35,957 bases of DNA from Chloroflexota bacterium. Its GTDB lineage: Bacteria; Chloroflexota; Dehalococcoidia; Lucifugimonadales; Lucifugimonadaceae. The stretch spans positions 30,981-66,937 of the forward strand of contig PAXI01000006.1 of assembly GCA_002714425.1 (NCBI GenBank). The letters run 5' to 3'. A model generated the notes under the pieces. It was given only the letters and a program-made list of their open reading frames with translations, was not told the origin of the DNA and made no database searches. The stretch's first letter is position 1; each line of letters opens with the position of its first letter. Below, piece by piece: positions 7,004 through 34,516 of this stretch. The translations under genes were made by a program, and so were the position numbers.

Positions 7004-8122
7004 TTATTTTCTTGGATCTACTAATTTCGTAGGCTTATCAACAGATCTCTCTCTCATTTTATTTAGGTTATATGCTAATCCTAAGCCTGGTGATTCAGGT
7101 ACTTTAATTGAACCATCAATCGGTTCAAATTTTTCGTCTAGAATTGAATCATTGTCCTTAATTGATACTTTTTCAATATTATATTCTTGATAATATGGAT
7201 AATTATTACTAGTTGAAATAATGTGAGCATGAGCAGCTGTAGAACCATAGGGTTGTGTGTTGTGAGTTGTAAGAATAGCATTTTTAGACGTAAGGGCACT
7301 TTCTATTCTTAAGTGTTCAGTTATTCCGCCAACTTTTACTACATCGGGTTGCATTATATCTGGCTTGCCATACTCAAATAATCTCATATGTTCCCATCTT
7401 GTAAATGCGTTTTCTCCAGCAGCAATAGGTATATCTAATTTTTCTGAAACTCTGGATAAACCCTCCATGTCTTTCATGGATTTTACTGGTTCTTCGAAAT
7501 GAAAAACATTTAAGTCTTCAAGCTGCTTACCTATTTCTATAGCATGTGAAACAGAGTAAGCACCGTTGACATCAACCATGATTTCAACCTGATTACCTAG
7601 TTCTTTTCTAATTTCTTTTACTGTATTAATAGTATTATCATTTAGAGTGTCATCTATTTTTGAAGGATTAGCTGAATGCATTTTGTAAGCCATGAAACCT
7701 TTGTCCAAAAACTTACCAACTCTAACAGCTTCTTCTTTAGGAGAAAGATCCCTCCTAAGTGAACTGGCATATAAAGAAATTTTATCTTTTTGTTTCCCAC
7801 CTATTAATTTATGAATTGGCTGATTGAGAACTTTACCTTTTATATCCCATAAAGCTATATCGATACCAGACGCAGCAGTTAGTAATGTTCCCAGTGGACC
7901 CATTGTTGCAGCAGAATTAATCATTTCTTCCCATATTTCATTGTTGCTAAAAGGAGATTTTCCGATAATTAATGGCGTAAAAACAGTTTCTATAACAGTT
8001 TTTGTAACGTAAGGAGATCTTCTGAAACACTCTCCAAAACCGATTATTCCTTCATCGGTATTTATTACAACGTATGGATATTCTTCGTCCAAAACTAAGC
8101 ACTCTACTGATACTATTTTCAT
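7004..8122 (-). CDS. Mandelate racemase/enolase-superfamily protein with a KxH motif
   Basis: A 372-residue enolase-superfamily member with an N-terminal capping domain (1-120) and a TIM barrel. Metal ligands read as Asp184 (MVDVNGAY), Glu210 (HFEEPV) and Glu237 (AAGEN). The His-Asp dyad of the mandelate racemase subgroup is present as His287 (TTHNTQPYG) and Asp260 (MQPD). On the opposite face Lys147 is kept, but the second Lys of the usual KxK motif is His149 (YKMHS). Such enzymes abstract a proton alpha to a carboxylate, most often dehydrating sugar acids. The KxH change makes the exact reaction uncertain. It overlaps the ispH stop by one base (TAATG), so the two are tightly coupled although metabolically unrelated. 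Confidence 0.88.
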   Translation of the reverse strand: MKIVSVECLVLDEEYPYVVINTDEGIIGFGECFRRSPYVTKTVIETVFTPLIIGKSPFSNNEIWEEMINSAATMGPLGTLLTAASGIDIALWDIKGKVLNQPIHKLIGGKQKDKISLYASSLRRDLSPKEEAVRVGKFLDKGFMAYKMHSANPSKIDDTLNDNTINTVKEIRKELGNQVEIMVDVNGAYSVSHAIEIGKQLEDLNVFHFEEPVKSMKDMEGLSRVSEKLDIPIAAGENAFTRWEHMRLFEYGKPDIMQPDVVKVGGITEHLRIESALTSKNAILTTHNTQPYGSTAAHAHIISTSNNYPYYQEYNIEKVSIKDNDSILDEKFEPIDGSIKVPESPGLGLAYNLNKMRERSVDKPTKLVDPRK

Positions 8123-20630: not shown

Positions 20631-21524
20631 ATGAATAAAAATATTATTGATGGGAAAAAAATAGCATTAAAAGTATCCGAAGATATTAAGGATAAAATAC
20701 GAGCCATGAATCGTGATTATAATACGATACCTGGCTTAGCAGTTATACTTATTGGTGATAATCCTGCTTCCTTATCATATGTTAGAGGTAAAGAAAAAGC
20801 TTGTAATAATGTTGGAATTTTTACTCAAACTTTTGCAATGCCTGCTGAATCAAGCTTTGAAAGTATCTCAGAACTAATTCTGTCTCTTAATATCGATGAA
20901 AGATTTCACGGCATATTGCTACAATTACCCTTGCCAAAACACTTAGATTCTGAAAAATTAATAGAACTTATAGATCCTCAAAAAGATGTAGATGGGCTTA
21001 CAAGTGAGAATGCAGGACTATTATTATTAGGAAGCCCAAGGTTTGTACCAGCAACTCCGCTGGGAGTTCAAAGGTTGTTAATTGAAGAAAATATAAAGAC
21101 GGATGGGGCTAAAATATTGATCATTGGTCGAAGTAATCTGGTTGGATTACCTCTTTCGATATTGTTACTTCAAAAAAGAGAGGGTGCAAATGCAACTGTT
21201 ACAGTAGCTCACACATCTACAAAAAATATTGAAGAATTATCTCTTGATTCTGATATAGTCATAGTTGCATCAGGGCTACCTAATACCCTGTTAGGACGAA
21301 TGGTAAAGAAAGGTTCAGTCGTTATAGATGTAGGAGTGAGTAGAATGCCAGATCACACCAAAAAAACAGGTTATAAGCTTGTTGGAGATGTAAATTTCAA
21401 TGAAGTTTCTCAGATAGTTTCAAAAATTACTCCGGTGCCAGGTGGAGTTGGTCCTATGACAATCGCGATGTTACTTAATAATGTATATTTAGCTGCCACT
21501 TTTAGTCTGAAGAAAGCGAATTAA
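20631..21524 (+). CDS. folD: Methylene-THF dehydrogenase/methenyl-THF cyclohydrolase
   Basis: FolD interconverts 5,10-methylene- and 10-formyl-tetrahydrofolate with NADP(H). The 297-residue protein shows Tyr50 and catalytic Lys54 in SYVRGKEKA, LLQLPLPKHLD (about 100-110), DPQKDVDGL and FVPATPLGVQRLL. The NADP site IIGRSNLVGLPLSILL lies near 165-180, then VTVAHTS, DVGVSR and the C-terminal PVPGGVGPMTIAML. All standard blocks are in place. The gene stands alone between acpS (divergent, 94 bp) and pdhA (60 bp). T-rich sequence follows its stop but I see no stem. Confidence 0.97.
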   Translation: MNKNIIDGKKIALKVSEDIKDKIRAMNRDYNTIPGLAVILIGDNPASLSYVRGKEKACNNVGIFTQTFAMPAESSFESISELILSLNIDERFHGILLQLPLPKHLDSEKLIELIDPQKDVDGLTSENAGLLLLGSPRFVPATPLGVQRLLIEENIKTDGAKILIIGRSNLVGLPLSILLLQKREGANATVTVAHTSTKNIEELSLDSDIVIVASGLPNTLLGRMVKKGSVVIDVGVSRMPDHTKKTGYKLVGDVNFNEVSQIVSKITPVPGGVGPMTIAMLLNNVYLAATFSLKKAN

Positions 21525-21584: not shown

Positions 21585-22646
21585 ATGACTAGCAAACAAA
21601 AAATAGAAAAAAATAAATCATTTCATGATAACGATTCCAAAAAATCTACAAAAACTTTAAATTCATCTAATTCAACTACAAGGTCTTTAGGTAAAAATGA
21701 ACATTTAGAACTCTTCAGAAAAATGTATCTTATAAGACAATTTGAAAATGCTTGTGGTCAGAATTATGCCAATGGCAACATAAGAGGATTTTTACATCTT
21801 TATTCCGGGCAGGAGGCCACTGGAGTTGGTTCGTTATCTTCACTAAAAGATTCTGATTATATAGTGACTCATTACAGAGATCATGGCCATGCTTTGGCTA
21901 GGGGAATAGATGTTAATCGATCAATGGCTGAACTTTTTGGAAAAAAAACAGGTTTATCTAAAGGTAAAGGTGGTTCAATGCATCTGTTCGATGCTAGTAA
22001 AAAATTTATGGGTGGACATGCAATCGTTGGAGGGCAACTACCTTTAGCAGCAGGACTAGCTCTGTCTCAGCAATACGATAAAAAAGATGGTATAACAATT
22101 TGTTTTTTTGGTGATGGATCCACCAACCAAGGTATTTACCATGAAACATTAAACTTGGCTGCTGTGTGGAATCTTCCAATATTATTTTTTCTTGAAAATA
22201 ATATGTACGGAATGGGATCTTCAATAGAAAGAGTTAGGGCTGGAGGATTAGATTTTTTCCCTGCAATGAATACATATGAAATACCTTCTATGGAAGTTGA
22301 TGGAATGGATGTGCTTGCAGTTAGAGAAGCCACAGAAATAGCTAGAGAAAAAATTCTTAAGGAAAAAAAACCATTTTTTATTGAGTCTAAAACTTTCAGA
22401 TTTGTGGGCCACTCTTATGCAGATGGGCAAAAATATAGAAATCAAGATGAAGTAATTAAGTGGGAGCAAAAAGATCCAATTATCGTTTATCCTAATAAGT
22501 TAATTGATATGAAAATTACTACTAATGATGAAATAAATAATATTAAGACAGAAGTTGATAATGTTATCAATGATGCTGTAAAGTTTGCTAATGAAAGCGA
22601 AGAACCCAGCTTGAATGAAATTTTTACTGATATACTAGCTGAGTAA
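21585..22646 (+). CDS. pdhA: Pyruvate dehydrogenase E1 component, alpha subunit
   Basis: Thiamine-diphosphate-dependent decarboxylase half of the PDH E1 heterotetramer. After a polar, Lys/Ser/Asn-rich extension of about 38 residues come MYLIRQFENACG, FLHLYSGQEA, VTHYRDHGHALARG, KGKGGSMHLFD and GGHAIVGGQLPLAAG. The ThDP/Mg motif runs from FFGDGSTNQG (about 175-184) to FLENNMYGMGS, with the phosphorylation-loop-like HSYADGQ later. It forms the pdhA-pdhB-pdhC order with the next two genes. TATAAT lies 7 nt before the ATG and there is no Shine-Dalgarno, suggesting a leaderless transcript. An acetoin or branched-chain 2-oxoacid dehydrogenase is an alternative, but PDH is the simplest reading. Confidence 0.9.
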   Translation: MTSKQKIEKNKSFHDNDSKKSTKTLNSSNSTTRSLGKNEHLELFRKMYLIRQFENACGQNYANGNIRGFLHLYSGQEATGVGSLSSLKDSDYIVTHYRDHGHALARGIDVNRSMAELFGKKTGLSKGKGGSMHLFDASKKFMGGHAIVGGQLPLAAGLALSQQYDKKDGITICFFGDGSTNQGIYHETLNLAAVWNLPILFFLENNMYGMGSSIERVRAGGLDFFPAMNTYEIPSMEVDGMDVLAVREATEIAREKILKEKKPFFIESKTFRFVGHSYADGQKYRNQDEVIKWEQKDPIIVYPNKLIDMKITTNDEINNIKTEVDNVINDAVKFANESEEPSLNEIFTDILAE

Positions 22647-22650
22647 AATT

Positions 22651-23628
22651 ATGCCTGAAATAACAATAAGAGAAGCACTAAAAATCGCCCTTAATGAAGC
22701 AATGGAAAATGATGAAAAAGTATTCATAATGGGAGAAGATATAGGTGAATATGGTGGTGCATATGCAGTTACAGATGGATTTTTAAAGAAATTTGGATCC
22801 AGAAGAATTAAAGACACTCCAATTTCTGAACAGGCCTTTGTTGGAGCTGGTATAGGTGCTGCAGTTGGTGGTTTGAGACCTGTAATAGAGTTGATGTCTA
22901 TATCATTTTCACTAGTTGCTTTCGACCAAATCGTCAATATGGCTGGAAATATCAGATATATGTCAGGCGGACAAATTAGCGTTCCTATGGTCATTAGAGC
23001 TCCTACTGGAGCAGGGGTTCAACTGGCTGCAACTCACTCTCAAAGTTTTGAAACATGGTTAGCTGAGGTACCTGGAATAAAAGTGGTATGTCCATCAAAT
23101 TCATATGATGCTCTTGGATTAATGAGGAGTGCGATTAAGGACAATAATCCTGTGATTTTTGCTGAACCAGCTCTTCTTTATGGTAGCAAATCAAATATTC
23201 CTAATGAATATTTTGAAGTGAATCTTGGAGATGCTAATGTGATGAAAGAAGGTGATGATATCACTATAGTTTCCTACGGATATGGCTCAAAAGTTTTATC
23301 AGATTCAGCAAAAAAATTAGAATCTATAGGTATAAAACCTGAACTAATCGACCTTAGGTCTCTCAACCCAATAGATTATCAAACAATTATCCATTCAATT
23401 CAAAAAACAAATAGGTTGGTTTTAGTAGATACCGCTAGAAAAACTGGTGGCATAATGGCTGAAATATCTGCAAACATTAATGAAAAAGCAGGTGAATGGT
23501 TAGATGGCCCTATAGTGAGAGTTGGATCAAAAGATGTACCATGGCCTTATAATAAAAATTTAGAACAAGAGGTCCTTACGGATTCAAATAACATATTAGA
23601 TACCATAAAAGTAAGTTATGGTATTTAG
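22651..23628 (+). CDS. pdhB: Pyruvate dehydrogenase E1 component, beta subunit
   Basis: Partner of the alpha subunit; it completes the ThDP site and docks E2. The 325-residue protein begins ITIREALKIALNEAM and has MGEDIGEYGGAY (with the Glu that activates ThDP), DTPISEQAFVGAGIGAA, LMSISFSLVAFDQI, RAPTGAGVQLAATHSQSFE and a transketolase C-terminal domain. That domain includes DITIVSYG, IDLRSLNPID and a late PWPYNKNLE. It starts 4 bp after the pdhA stop, so the two are co-translated. No E3 (dihydrolipoamide dehydrogenase) gene is in the window. Confidence 0.92.
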   Translation: MPEITIREALKIALNEAMENDEKVFIMGEDIGEYGGAYAVTDGFLKKFGSRRIKDTPISEQAFVGAGIGAAVGGLRPVIELMSISFSLVAFDQIVNMAGNIRYMSGGQISVPMVIRAPTGAGVQLAATHSQSFETWLAEVPGIKVVCPSNSYDALGLMRSAIKDNNPVIFAEPALLYGSKSNIPNEYFEVNLGDANVMKEGDDITIVSYGYGSKVLSDSAKKLESIGIKPELIDLRSLNPIDYQTIIHSIQKTNRLVLVDTARKTGGIMAEISANINEKAGEWLDGPIVRVGSKDVPWPYNKNLEQEVLTDSNNILDTIKVSYGI

Positions 23629-23648
23629 TGGAATAAGTTTTATTTTCT

Positions 23649-23654
23649 AGGAGG
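23649..23654 (+). promoter_or_regulatory. Strong ribosome binding site for a TTG start
   Basis: AGGAGG lies 6 nt before the TTG at 23661. It is the best Shine-Dalgarno I noticed in the window and identifies TTG as the E2 start, with no in-frame ATG before the lipoyl domain. Confidence 0.75.
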
Positions 23655-23660
23655 AAAAAG

Positions 23661-24923
23661 TTGATTACAGAAGTTACTATGCCGTCTATGGGTGCAGATA
23701 TGACTGAGGGTACTATTGTTAAGTGGTTGTTCAAAGAAGGTGATGATGTAAATAAAGGAGATAAAATAGCCGAGGTTGAAACAGATAAAACTGTTGTTGA
23801 GATGGAAGCATATTCTAGCGGGAAGTTGAGAAAAATCTTAATCCCAGAAGGCACAATGGTTAGTGTTGGTACTGTAATTGCTTATATCGGAGATGAAAAT
23901 GATGAGATTCCTCAAATAAATGCAGATTCGCATGAAGCTCAGGAAACTGTTGAATCTTCAACAGAAATTCAAATAGAAAATGACAATTTAGAACAAGAGC
24001 AAAAAATAGAAAAAGTAGAAGTTAAGCAAACTGAAACAATAAATATAAATCATGATGATAATGCTCGTGTTAAAGCTTCCCCTATAGCTAGAAAATTGGC
24101 TCTAGAGAAATCTATAAACATTAAAGATGTCTCTGGTACAGGCCCTGGAGGTAGAATAACTAAGATTGATATAGAAAATTATTCCCCTCAAAAAGCTTTT
24201 GCGCCATCTAATACATCAAAGACAATTTCTATTGATAGTTCGGATACTGATTTGAGTTCAATGAGGCAGGCTATTGCAAGGGTAACAGTTAAGTCAAAGT
24301 CAACTATACCTCATTATTATGTAACACATGATATAAATATGACTGCAGCCATGAGTTTCAGATCTCAAATGAATGAAATTCTTGCTGAAACAAAGGAGAA
24401 AATATCTGTTAATGATATGCTTCTGAAGGCTGTTACTAATTCTCTAATTAAGTATCCAAAATGGAATTCTTCATTTGAGGGGAATAAACTTATTGGTAGT
24501 ACTTCAATAAACCTTGGTGTTGCAATGGCGCTTGAAGATGGATTGGTAGTTCCTGCTATTATGTCTATTGAAAATATGTCGTTATCTGAAATATCTCAAT
24601 CGGTAAAAGATCTTAGTAACAGGGCTAGAGGTATTGATGGTAATTTAACTCAAGATGAATTGACTAAAGGGACTTTTGGTACTTCAAATCTTGGTATGTT
24701 TGGGACAAAAAGTTTTTCTGCTATTATTGTTCCTCCAAATGCAGGAATTGTAGCTGTAGGAAAAGTTGAGGAAAAACCTATTGTACTTAATGGTGAGATT
24801 GTAATTGCATCTATTATGAGTGCTAGTATGTCCGCTGATCATAGAGTTGGTGATGGAGCAGAAGCAGCAATGTTCATGTCTGAAGTTCAGAGTAATCTAG
24901 AAAATCCTCTTAAGTTGATATAA
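23661..24923 (+). CDS. pdhC: Dihydrolipoamide acetyltransferase (PDH E2)
   Basis: E2 core of the 2-oxoacid dehydrogenase complex, transferring acetyl from lipoate to CoA. In 420 residues there is one lipoyl domain (2-75) with lipoyl-Lys43 in VETDKTVVEMEA. An acidic Glu/Gln-rich linker (about 80-130) follows. The peripheral subunit-binding domain (ASPIARKLALEK to GPGGRITKIDIE, about 133-167) comes next. A Ser-rich linker leads to the catalytic domain, with IPHYYVTHDI, SVNDMLLKAV, GTFGTSNLGMFG and the active site ADHRVGDG near residue 393 (HxxxDG). The start is TTG with a strong Shine-Dalgarno. It lies 32 bp after pdhB and 21 bp before the ThyX-like gene. Confidence 0.93.
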   Translation: MITEVTMPSMGADMTEGTIVKWLFKEGDDVNKGDKIAEVETDKTVVEMEAYSSGKLRKILIPEGTMVSVGTVIAYIGDENDEIPQINADSHEAQETVESSTEIQIENDNLEQEQKIEKVEVKQTETININHDDNARVKASPIARKLALEKSINIKDVSGTGPGGRITKIDIENYSPQKAFAPSNTSKTISIDSSDTDLSSMRQAIARVTVKSKSTIPHYYVTHDINMTAAMSFRSQMNEILAETKEKISVNDMLLKAVTNSLIKYPKWNSSFEGNKLIGSTSINLGVAMALEDGLVVPAIMSIENMSLSEISQSVKDLSNRARGIDGNLTQDELTKGTFGTSNLGMFGTKSFSAIIVPPNAGIVAVGKVEEKPIVLNGEIVIASIMSASMSADHRVGDGAEAAMFMSEVQSNLENPLKLI

Positions 24924-24944: not shown

Positions 24945-26534
24945 ATGTATACTCCAGAATCTTTTTCAAATCCAGAACGAAAAGTTTTGGAAAATTATTT
25001 TACAAATATAGATCAACCTGTATTTGTAGTTATGAACTTGCCAGAAGTAGTAAAAGGTGCACTATTTGCTAGATATAGCCGTTCATCAAAATCTCTAAGA
25101 AGATTATTTTTAGATGAATTTGTTAATATTGACAATGGAACTTTAAAAAATAATCAAGACTTTTTAGTAGATATAACTAGAGCAGAAAAACTATATGATA
25201 GAGTTTTTAGTGAATATGGTGATGATTCTGTGGCTCAACTTGGTGGCGCTCATATTGCTTGTGAAAATGCATCGAATATTTTGACAAAGGTTCTCGAGTG
25301 GGGGAGACTAGCATCATACTTAGAACAATCAACACGATACATTTTTTATGACAAAAAAGTTAATGAGCATTATAGATATGTTATTCCAGATGAAATATCA
25401 TCGTATGACTTAACAAAATATAAAAAAAATATGGATAAACTCTTTGATGAATACTCTTTATTAGTTCATAAATTAGTAGATTTTTTCAAATCAAAATACC
25501 CTAAAAGTACCGATGATTCGAATTTTATTTATAACTCCTCTATACGAGCAAAGGCTTGTGACGTTGCTAGGGGGTTACTACCTGCATCAACATTTTCAAA
25601 CGTAGGTATATTTGCGTCAGGTCAAGCTTATGAAAATATGATTATGAAAATGAATAGTCATCCACTCGCTGAAGTCAGAAGCTATTCTAATTTAATGTTA
25701 TCTGAATTAAGAAAGGTTATACCTTCTTTTCTTAAGAGAGTAGATTTGCCAGATAGAGGATTATTATGGTCGAAATACTTTAGTGATATTAATCAGAATA
25801 TGGAAAAAATCGTAAATGATTATGGCAATAATTCTTCTACTAATCTAGAAGTTGACTTAATTGAATGGGATCAAAATGCTGAAGATAAAATAATTGTTTC
25901 AGCTTTATACTCTTACACTAATAAAAGTGAGAGAGAATTGATAAAAATAGTTCAAAAATTAAGCCAAAAAGAAAAAGAAAGAATTTTATACAAATATATT
26001 GGAGATAGAAATAATAGAAGGCATAAACCAGGTAGAGCAATGGAACGTTCTTATTACAGATTTGATATTTTGTCGGACTTTGGCAGTTTCCGTGATCTTC
26101 AAAGGCATAGAATGATGACTATTGATTGGCAAAAGCTCAGTACATTTAATGGTTTTTCTACTCCTCAAGTAATCGAGGAGATTAATTATCAGGACACATG
26201 GGAAAAAATAATGATAGAAATAGGAGAATATTTTAAAACATTAGGTTCAAAATATGGCTTACATGTGGCTCAATATGTTGTTCCTTTTTCATATAATATT
26301 AGATATTCAATGCAATTTAATGTTCGAGAAGCATACCATTTATTAGAACTTAGAACTGCCCCACAAGGTCATGTTGATTATAGGCGAGTTTGTCAAAAAA
26401 TGCATGAACTAATTCTTAATAAAGCTGGTCATAAAATTTTAGCAAACTCTATGAAATACGTTGATCACAATACGTATGATCTAGAGAGAATTGAAGCTGA
26501 AAGAGCTGCTGAAAAAAGAAGAGCAAAAAAATAA
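24945..26534 (+). CDS. Tandem-domain ThyX-like (FAD-dependent thymidylate synthase family) protein
   Basis: A 529-residue protein made of two ThyX-like halves; single ThyX chains are usually 220-260 residues. In the first half (about 20-270), FSEYGDDSVAQLGG and WGRLASYLEQSTRY (about 118-131) align with the ThyX GHxS...RHRxxSxNExSxRY signature, but RHR has become WGR. In the second half (about 300-515), DLQRHRMMTIDWQKLS (from about 384) keeps RHR but loses the SxxExSxRY part. NVREAYHLLELR and HVDYRRVCQKMHEL match the ThyX C-terminal FAD/dUMP helices. ThyX makes dTMP using methylene-THF, NADPH and FAD; whether this protein does so is unproven. It lies 21 bp after E2 and 4 bp before the ABC ATPase. 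The C-terminus is Arg/Lys/Glu-rich. Confidence 0.75.
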   Translation: MYTPESFSNPERKVLENYFTNIDQPVFVVMNLPEVVKGALFARYSRSSKSLRRLFLDEFVNIDNGTLKNNQDFLVDITRAEKLYDRVFSEYGDDSVAQLGGAHIACENASNILTKVLEWGRLASYLEQSTRYIFYDKKVNEHYRYVIPDEISSYDLTKYKKNMDKLFDEYSLLVHKLVDFFKSKYPKSTDDSNFIYNSSIRAKACDVARGLLPASTFSNVGIFASGQAYENMIMKMNSHPLAEVRSYSNLMLSELRKVIPSFLKRVDLPDRGLLWSKYFSDINQNMEKIVNDYGNNSSTNLEVDLIEWDQNAEDKIIVSALYSYTNKSERELIKIVQKLSQKEKERILYKYIGDRNNRRHKPGRAMERSYYRFDILSDFGSFRDLQRHRMMTIDWQKLSTFNGFSTPQVIEEINYQDTWEKIMIEIGEYFKTLGSKYGLHVAQYVVPFSYNIRYSMQFNVREAYHLLELRTAPQGHVDYRRVCQKMHELILNKAGHKILANSMKYVDHNTYDLERIEAERAAEKRRAKK

Positions 26535-33394: not shown

Positions 33395-34516
33395 TTAGTT
33401 AATCCTATATGGCTCAAGGGTATCCCATTTAGGAACTAAACCAAGTCCTGGTCTATCTGGTGCATATACATACCCATCTTCAATATATAACTCATCTTCC
33501 CATATTTTCCCATGCATTGGATTAACTGAATCTCGATAATATTCTAAAATAAGTCCATTTGGTATAGCTGCCACAAGATGTATGTGTAGTTCTTGTGGTC
33601 CATGAGGCGCTATATCAAGGTCATTTGCTTGCGCTAAAGCAGCGACTTTCATAAATTCTGTAACTCCTCCCATAATTATTCCATCTGGCTGGAGAATATC
33701 TACGGCTCTAGAATTAATCATATCTCTGAAGCCGTATCTTGAATATTCATTTTCTCCTGCTGCAACAGGTATAGAGGTGGATTTAGTTATTTCTGCTTGA
33801 CCAATATAATCATCTGGTTCTACAGGCTCTTCAAACCAGAATATATCATATTTTTCAGCTTTCCTTGCAAATTCGATTGCTTCATAATGCCTATAAGCAT
33901 TATTAGCATCTACCATAAGCTTTACATTTGGCCCTATTGATTCTCTACAAATTTTAACTCTCTCTACATCTTCATTAATTGAGACCGCACCAACTTTTAT
34001 TTTTACCGCTCTAGCTCCAAGTTCTACATTATCTTCCATTTCTTTTGCCAACTCTTTTAATCCCTTACCTTCTTCGTAATAACCGCCGGCTATATATGTA
34101 TCTACTTTATTTGTGAAACCTCCCAGCAATTTATATAAAGGCATTTGAGCAAATTTTCCTTTTATGTCCCATAAAGCTATATCTATTCCTGAGATTATTC
34201 TTGTTGATATTCCTCTTCGTCCTACTAATTTTGGTTTCCACATTGCATGCCACAGGGCTTCATTATCCAAAGGATCTAGTCCTACAAGTATTCCTTTAAA
34301 ATATTCAACAAATCCTTCAGCAATCTTACTGCTGGCATTATTCAGCACATTTCCTCCAGGAGTATTTCCTGCAATGCCAATTCCTGTTATTTCAGGCTCA
34401 TCAGTTTCTATTATGATTAGGTCTAATGAGTTATGTGTATAAGTGTATAAGCCATTGGTAATTGGCACTGATCTTGGCCATTTATATAATTTGTTATATA
34501 CATTTGTAATTTTCAT
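33395..34516 (-). CDS. Mandelate racemase/enolase-superfamily sugar-acid enzyme
   Basis: A 373-residue member with the full mandelate-racemase-type active site. Lys172 and Lys174 (VKIKVGA) form KxK. Metal ligands are Asp203 (VDANNAY), Glu229 (WFEEPV) and Glu255 (AAGENEYS), with the His305-Asp278 dyad (APHGPQE, LQPDG). The SGIDIALWDIKGK segment at 109-121 is typical. Most relatives dehydrate or epimerise acid sugars; the substrate is not evident. AGGGA precedes the ATG. Upstream is the 17-bp inverted repeat at 34559-34609, a possible operator. It differs clearly from the other enolase-superfamily gene (7004-8122), so the two are distant paralogues with probably different substrates. Confidence 0.92.
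   Translation of the reverse strand: MKITNVYNKLYKWPRSVPITNGLYTYTHNSLDLIIIETDEPEITGIGIAGNTPGGNVLNNASSKIAEGFVEYFKGILVGLDPLDNEALWHAMWKPKLVGRRGISTRIISGIDIALWDIKGKFAQMPLYKLLGGFTNKVDTYIAGGYYEEGKGLKELAKEMEDNVELGARAVKIKVGAVSINEDVERVKICRESIGPNVKLMVDANNAYRHYEAIEFARKAEKYDIFWFEEPVEPDDYIGQAEITKSTSIPVAAGENEYSRYGFRDMINSRAVDILQPDGIIMGGVTEFMKVAALAQANDLDIAPHGPQELHIHLVAAIPNGLILEYYRDSVNPMHGKIWEDELYIEDGYVYAPDRPGLGLVPKWDTLEPYRIN

Follow-up and report, generated by a model that had tools for sequence, protein, structure and literature searches.

The stretch of DNA analysed here (the window) is 35,957 nucleotides of a Chloroflexota bacterium of the Dehalococcoidia (assembly GCA_002714425.1, contig PAXI01000006.1). 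It carries an open reading frame with an ATG start that encodes a 529 aa protein with two Thy1 domains in one chain, referred to below as tandem ThyX (Table 1). The gene order is folD (methylene-THF dehydrogenase/cyclohydrolase), the E1 alpha, E1 beta and E2 genes of a 2-oxoacid (pyruvate-type) dehydrogenase (PDH), tandem thyX, and then an ABC transporter that includes an NMT1/THI5-like binding protein and a phosphomethylpyrimidine kinase-like gene. The original prediction had linked tandem thyX to PDH genes and had seen no folate genes nearby. The PDH genes do lie directly upstream. The absence of folate genes did not hold, because folD, upstream on the same strand, interconverts methylene-THF, the carbon donor of ThyX. 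PDH genes also precede tandem thyX in other Dehalococcoidia/Chloroflexi loci (L099-L101, L103, L109, L110) and a partial folD was seen at the edge of three related Dehalococcoidia/Chloroflexi loci. PDH genes were not found beside tandem thyX in the Actinomycetota or Acidobacteriota loci tested. The window also contains two enolase superfamily (MR_MLE) genes, at 7004-8122 and 33395-34516.

Table 1. Features of the tandem thyX locus, in window coordinates. Residue equivalents are given in T. maritima ThyX numbering.
Feature	Position	Strand	Evidence
folD (methylene-THF dehydrogenase/cyclohydrolase), upstream of the PDH genes	20631..21524	+	PF02882 E 6.8e-56, PF00763 E 1.3e-36
PDH E1 alpha, E1 beta and E2, directly upstream of tandem thyX	21585..24923	+	Pfam
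Tandem ThyX, two Thy1 domains in one chain, 529 aa	24945..26534	+	ORF; PF02511 twice; AlphaFold2 pLDDT 90.3, pTM 0.88
Half 1 Thy1 domain, Pfam match residues 78-261; dUMP-side residues kept, RHR lost	25176..25727	+	Pfam; alignment; predicted ThyX fold, Z 13.8 with 2af6_A
S95, half 1, at the T55 position (S in canonical relatives)	25227..25229	+	150/150 tandem homologues
W119-G120-R121, half 1, at the RHR position	25299..25307	+	Alignment
E127-Q-S129-T-R131-Y132, half 1, retained ExSxRY part of the signature	25323..25340	+	S129 and R131 150/150, E127 149/150, Y132 148/150
R209, half 1 only, equivalent to R147	25569..25571	+	150/150
Half 2 Thy1 domain, Pfam match residues 305-491; RHR and R174 kept, SxRY and R147 lost	25857..26417	+	Pfam; alignment; predicted ThyX fold, Z 16.9 with 6j61_A and 5iot_D
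R387-H388-R389, half 2, FAD-binding RHR	26103..26111	+	R387 and H388 150/150, R389 148/150
Q443, half 2, at the R147 position (R147 lost)	26271..26273	+	Alignment
R470, half 2, equivalent to R174, the dUMP-activating arginine	26352..26354	+	150/150

The two halves of the protein were searched separately against the Pfam Thy1 profile (PF02511, cut-off 24.8 bits). Each half passed the cut-off alone, half 1 with 68.7 bits (E 7.3e-19) and half 2 with 66.3 bits (E 4.1e-18), and the description of a tandem ThyX-like protein in the original prediction was borne out. The whole chain scored 64.9 bits against the NCBIfam thyX equivalog TIGR02170, below the 87.9-bit cut-off, and a single-sequence search of the PDB with the tandem protein gave no match under E 1. 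AlphaFold2 modelled the whole chain from a 28-sequence alignment with a pLDDT of 90.3 and a pTM of 0.88, and in a structure search half 2 reached a Z of up to 16.9 against ThyX structures (2.4 A over 185-193 residues). In the ThyX matches listed for the full chain only half 2 was aligned, and half 1 was therefore given a model and a search of its own. This half 1 model (pLDDT 89.4, pTM 0.81) matched M. tuberculosis ThyX 2af6_A at Z 13.8 (4.4 A over 205 residues) and T. maritima ThyX at a lower Z of about 11, and the best non-ThyX structure among its matches had a Z of 6.0. The models predict a ThyX fold for both halves.

The distribution of catalytic residues was assessed in an alignment of 150 tandem proteins and 20 canonical ThyX proteins. 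The tandem proteins came from Chloroflexota, Actinomycetota (mostly Acidimicrobiia), Acidobacteriota, Rokubacteria, plasmid records, one phage and viral contigs. T. maritima residue numbers were assigned through this alignment, and its T. maritima sequence has RHR at 78 as expected. All canonical catalytic residues were present in the window's chain and were divided between its halves, with R78, H79, R80 and R174 in half 2 and E86, S88, R90, Y91 and R147 in half 1. The WGR and the SxxxxQSTRY part of half 1, and the RHR of half 2 with no SxRY after it, were found as originally described. Among the 150 proteins, half 1 had S88, R90, R147 and a T55-type serine in every sequence, E86 in 149 and Y91 in 148, and half 2 had R78, H79 and R174 in every sequence and R80 in 148. 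The RHR position of half 1 held something other than RHR in 149/150 (WGR in 79, DSR in 25, RGR in 11, and others), with RHR once (L075), and no SxRY was found in half 2 of any of the 150. RHR and SxRY occurred together in neither half of the window protein and, among the 150, in half 1 of L075 only. R165 was mostly in half 2 (135/150) and was in half 1 in 59/150. The two Bacilli copies (L187-L188) had RHN in place of RHR in half 2. Judged by the aligned sequences, the split is a feature of the family and neither chance nor a sequencing error, because it is common to 150 tandem homologues; the alignment confirmed that it is more general than had been stated.

To place the gene among the thymidylate synthases of these bacteria we compared genomes for PF02511 and for ThyA (PF00303). 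The window genome (1.4 Mb, 95.4% complete) had no ThyA at the tandem gene or elsewhere, no ThyX other than the tandem gene, no DHFR and no thymidine kinase above cut-off, and a dUTPase-family gene was present. A second synthase may have been missed because the assembly is 95.4% complete. The other two genomes of the genus also carry both PF02511 matches. In a phylum sample of 301 genomes, 100 had a relative of the tandem protein, and strong ThyA matches (E < 1e-40) were found in 13, all of them tandem-negative. PF00303 matches of E 1e-5 to 1e-25 that covered the profile in part did not count as ThyA. Searches of 74 near-complete tandem genomes found no full-length ThyA. The Thy1 matches listed for these 74 genomes fell inside the tandem frame or, in G095 and G254, inside pieces of it split between contigs, with two genomes, G046 and G096, as exceptions; G036 had a third Thy1 match outside those listed. 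In G046 (C13) and G096 (C7) the exception was a weak additional Thy1-like frame, about 317 aa long, alongside the tandem gene. ThyX was present in about 107/135 non-tandem near-complete genomes. A plain Fisher test of tandem against ThyX, with counts derived from match lists and relatedness ignored, gave p of about 5e-30, and the tandem gene and other thymidylate synthases were mutually exclusive. In the window's order a Thy1 gene, single or tandem, was found in 92/93 near-complete genomes; the two forms alternate within the order, and within the family of the window the single form is found in genus g2. Two PF02511 matches in the f66 genomes gave the impression of tandems, but these were rejected because they proved to be single ThyX genes whose match is split. 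These genome comparisons suggest that the fused protein is the sole thymidylate synthase of these bacteria.

The split was then compared with published ThyX active sites. Three subunits contribute to each site in solved ThyX: subunit A supplies RHR and the R174 equivalent, subunit B the Ser and Arg that correspond to T55 and R165, and subunit C the equivalents of E86, S88, R90 and Y91 (PMC6514825); R147 is absent from the subunit list of that review. The tandem halves divide along the line between subunits A and C in 150/150 sequences. The subunit-B contacts sort uncleanly, with the T55-type serine in half 1 and R165 more often in half 2 than in half 1. In the T. maritima enzyme, each of the substitutions S88A, R90A and Y91A makes the dUMP step slower, while R174 activates dUMP and R78 binds reduced flavin (PMC8316439, PMC11940539). 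We consider it likely that the protein is a working FAD-dependent thymidylate synthase that arose by duplication and fusion of thyX followed by a division of labour between the halves. Two chains, each contributing a half-1 and a half-2 domain, would assemble into a pseudo-tetramer. Every working site in it would take RHR and R174 from a half 2 for FAD contact and dUMP activation, and ExSxRY and R147 from a half 1 for dUMP contact and the tyrosine lid, giving two composite sites per dimer of chains. Two of the four ThyX sites would be expected to be dead because the reverse combination of halves has neither residue set. Conservation together with the published subunit contacts points to such a composite site, and from it we infer a dimer of chains that binds two FAD and two dUMP and is catalytically active. 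The residue partition, the genome distribution and the tree of halves described below lend strong support to the proposal that complementary loss after duplication left fewer, composite sites.

Instead of sharing a composite site, the halves might each have their own ligand-binding task, with half-1-only or half-2-only sites. The ambiguous subunit-B contacts would fit such an arrangement, but neither half holds the full set of FAD and dUMP residues, and solved ThyX sites require RHR and SxRY from different subunits (PMC6514825); we regard it as very improbable. The original prediction had also offered a flavoprotein with a new function. A ThyX-derived flavoprotein that is not the cell's thymidylate synthase but has another substrate or role, for instance as an NADPH oxidase or, like PolB, as a UMP methylase, would explain the low similarity to canonical ThyX (no PDB match under E 1 in the single-sequence search) and the score below the NCBIfam equivalog cut-off. 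The fold is also able to change role, as PolB and C. glutamicum ThyX illustrate; by their PDB titles, C. glutamicum 3fnn/3ge9 is not the cell's thymidylate synthase and PolB 4p5b acts on UMP. Against this, the tandem protein replaces ThyX and ThyA across many near-complete genomes, no other thymidylate source was found in the window genome, and the catalytic residues for dTMP synthesis are all conserved, merely redistributed. Since the gene is present in genomes in which no other thymidylate synthase was found, a new function is disfavoured, and we consider it unlikely.

The small genome (1.4 Mb) and its incomplete assembly would allow for a decaying or inactive duplicate in an organism that lives on imported thymidine or has its synthase gene in the 4.6% that the assembly lacks. 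The frame is open and without stops, though, the same residues are invariant in 150 homologues, both matches are also present in the two other genomes of the genus, and no thymidine kinase above cut-off was found in the window genome, so that decay appears the least probable of these explanations and is hard to credit.

In trees built from the halves, the half-1 sequences of the main family grouped apart from its half-2 sequences, with support of 98-99. The simplest reading for the main family would be one old duplication and fusion, because the halves form separate supported groups. In one tree of halves the f42 clade was the first to branch in both groups; its half 1 has RHR with SGRY (QHR in one genome) and its half 2 has RHR without SxRY. 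With RHR in both halves, the f42 clade looks like an intermediate. The dUMP side appears to have been lost from half 2 before RHR was lost from half 1, because the early-branching f42 clade still has RHR in both halves. In L197, L198, L200 and L201 of this clade, and in L075, the signature of half 1 is complete or almost so and half 2 has RHR but no SxRY; these are likely intermediates. A second, very divergent tandem lineage (f61, f53 and f81; L194-L196, L203, L205) has the same complementary split: its half 1 reads HP...YNSEQVSQRY and lacks RHR, and its half 2 has RHR but no SxRY. This lineage also has a Cys-containing C-terminal extension (CPEGERYCGVPVW). It came perhaps from an independent duplication; an AU test, with long branches, gave p 0.43 for one half-1 clade and p 0.54 for the f61 halves together. 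More tentatively, and with rather less than even confidence, a stepwise ratchet may have led an essential enzyme to obligate asymmetry, with the dUMP side of half 2 and then the FAD side of half 1 lost, a course that possibly ran twice.

Tandem ThyX is also carried by viral contigs and the Tunturiibacter phage Tunturi_5 (L178-L186, L191) and by 200-kb Bacillus/Paenibacillus plasmid records (L187-L188). In Tunturi_5 (309 kb) the tandem gene follows a dCMP deaminase gene with a dUTPase gene nearby. A Parabacteroides distasonis plasmid record (L189), far from the expected phyla, has a tandem thyX whose product is 51% identical to that of the window.

Canonical ThyX (PF02511; T. maritima TM0449, M. 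tuberculosis ThyX) shares its catalytic residues and, in the models, its fold with both tandem halves, and its chemistry (FAD, dUMP, methylene-THF) would be expected of the tandem protein too. Canonical ThyX assembles as a homotetramer from chains of 216-270 aa, each carrying both RHR and SxRY, and has four equal sites, whereas the tandem protein has two fused domains, a split signature and two expected sites. A profile search of the PDB found no tandem chain, the matches being 216-270 aa long. The principle has a precedent in the monomeric dUTPase of herpesviruses, where a homo-oligomeric nucleotide enzyme reportedly doubled in length through gene duplication and the motifs of a once inter-subunit site were redistributed along one chain (PMC8961515). 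That enzyme differs from tandem ThyX in its unrelated fold and reaction and in ending as a monomer with one site. PolB, a ThyX-like UMP/dUMP methylase (4p5b), has the ThyX fold in common with the tandem protein but is a single-domain protein of an antibiotic pathway, and illustrates that altered ThyX proteins can switch substrate. NCBI entries from Euzebya, Miltoncostaea, Parabacteroides, Bacillus and Paenibacillus plasmid records belong to the same tandem family and carry the general name FAD-dependent thymidylate synthase. The tandem sequences and their likely role are already known, because the plasmid records name them so. We found no description of the fusion or of the residue split in the open-access literature.

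Textbooks describe ThyX, an essential enzyme and drug target, as a symmetric homotetramer. Motif-based annotation may misjudge either half of the tandem protein as dead. A widespread fused form with split catalytic residues would be a natural subunit-complementation experiment that would reveal which residues need different subunits and whether two sites suffice. It would also show a path from a homo-oligomer to an obligate asymmetric machine, and the surviving intermediates would make the order of losses testable.
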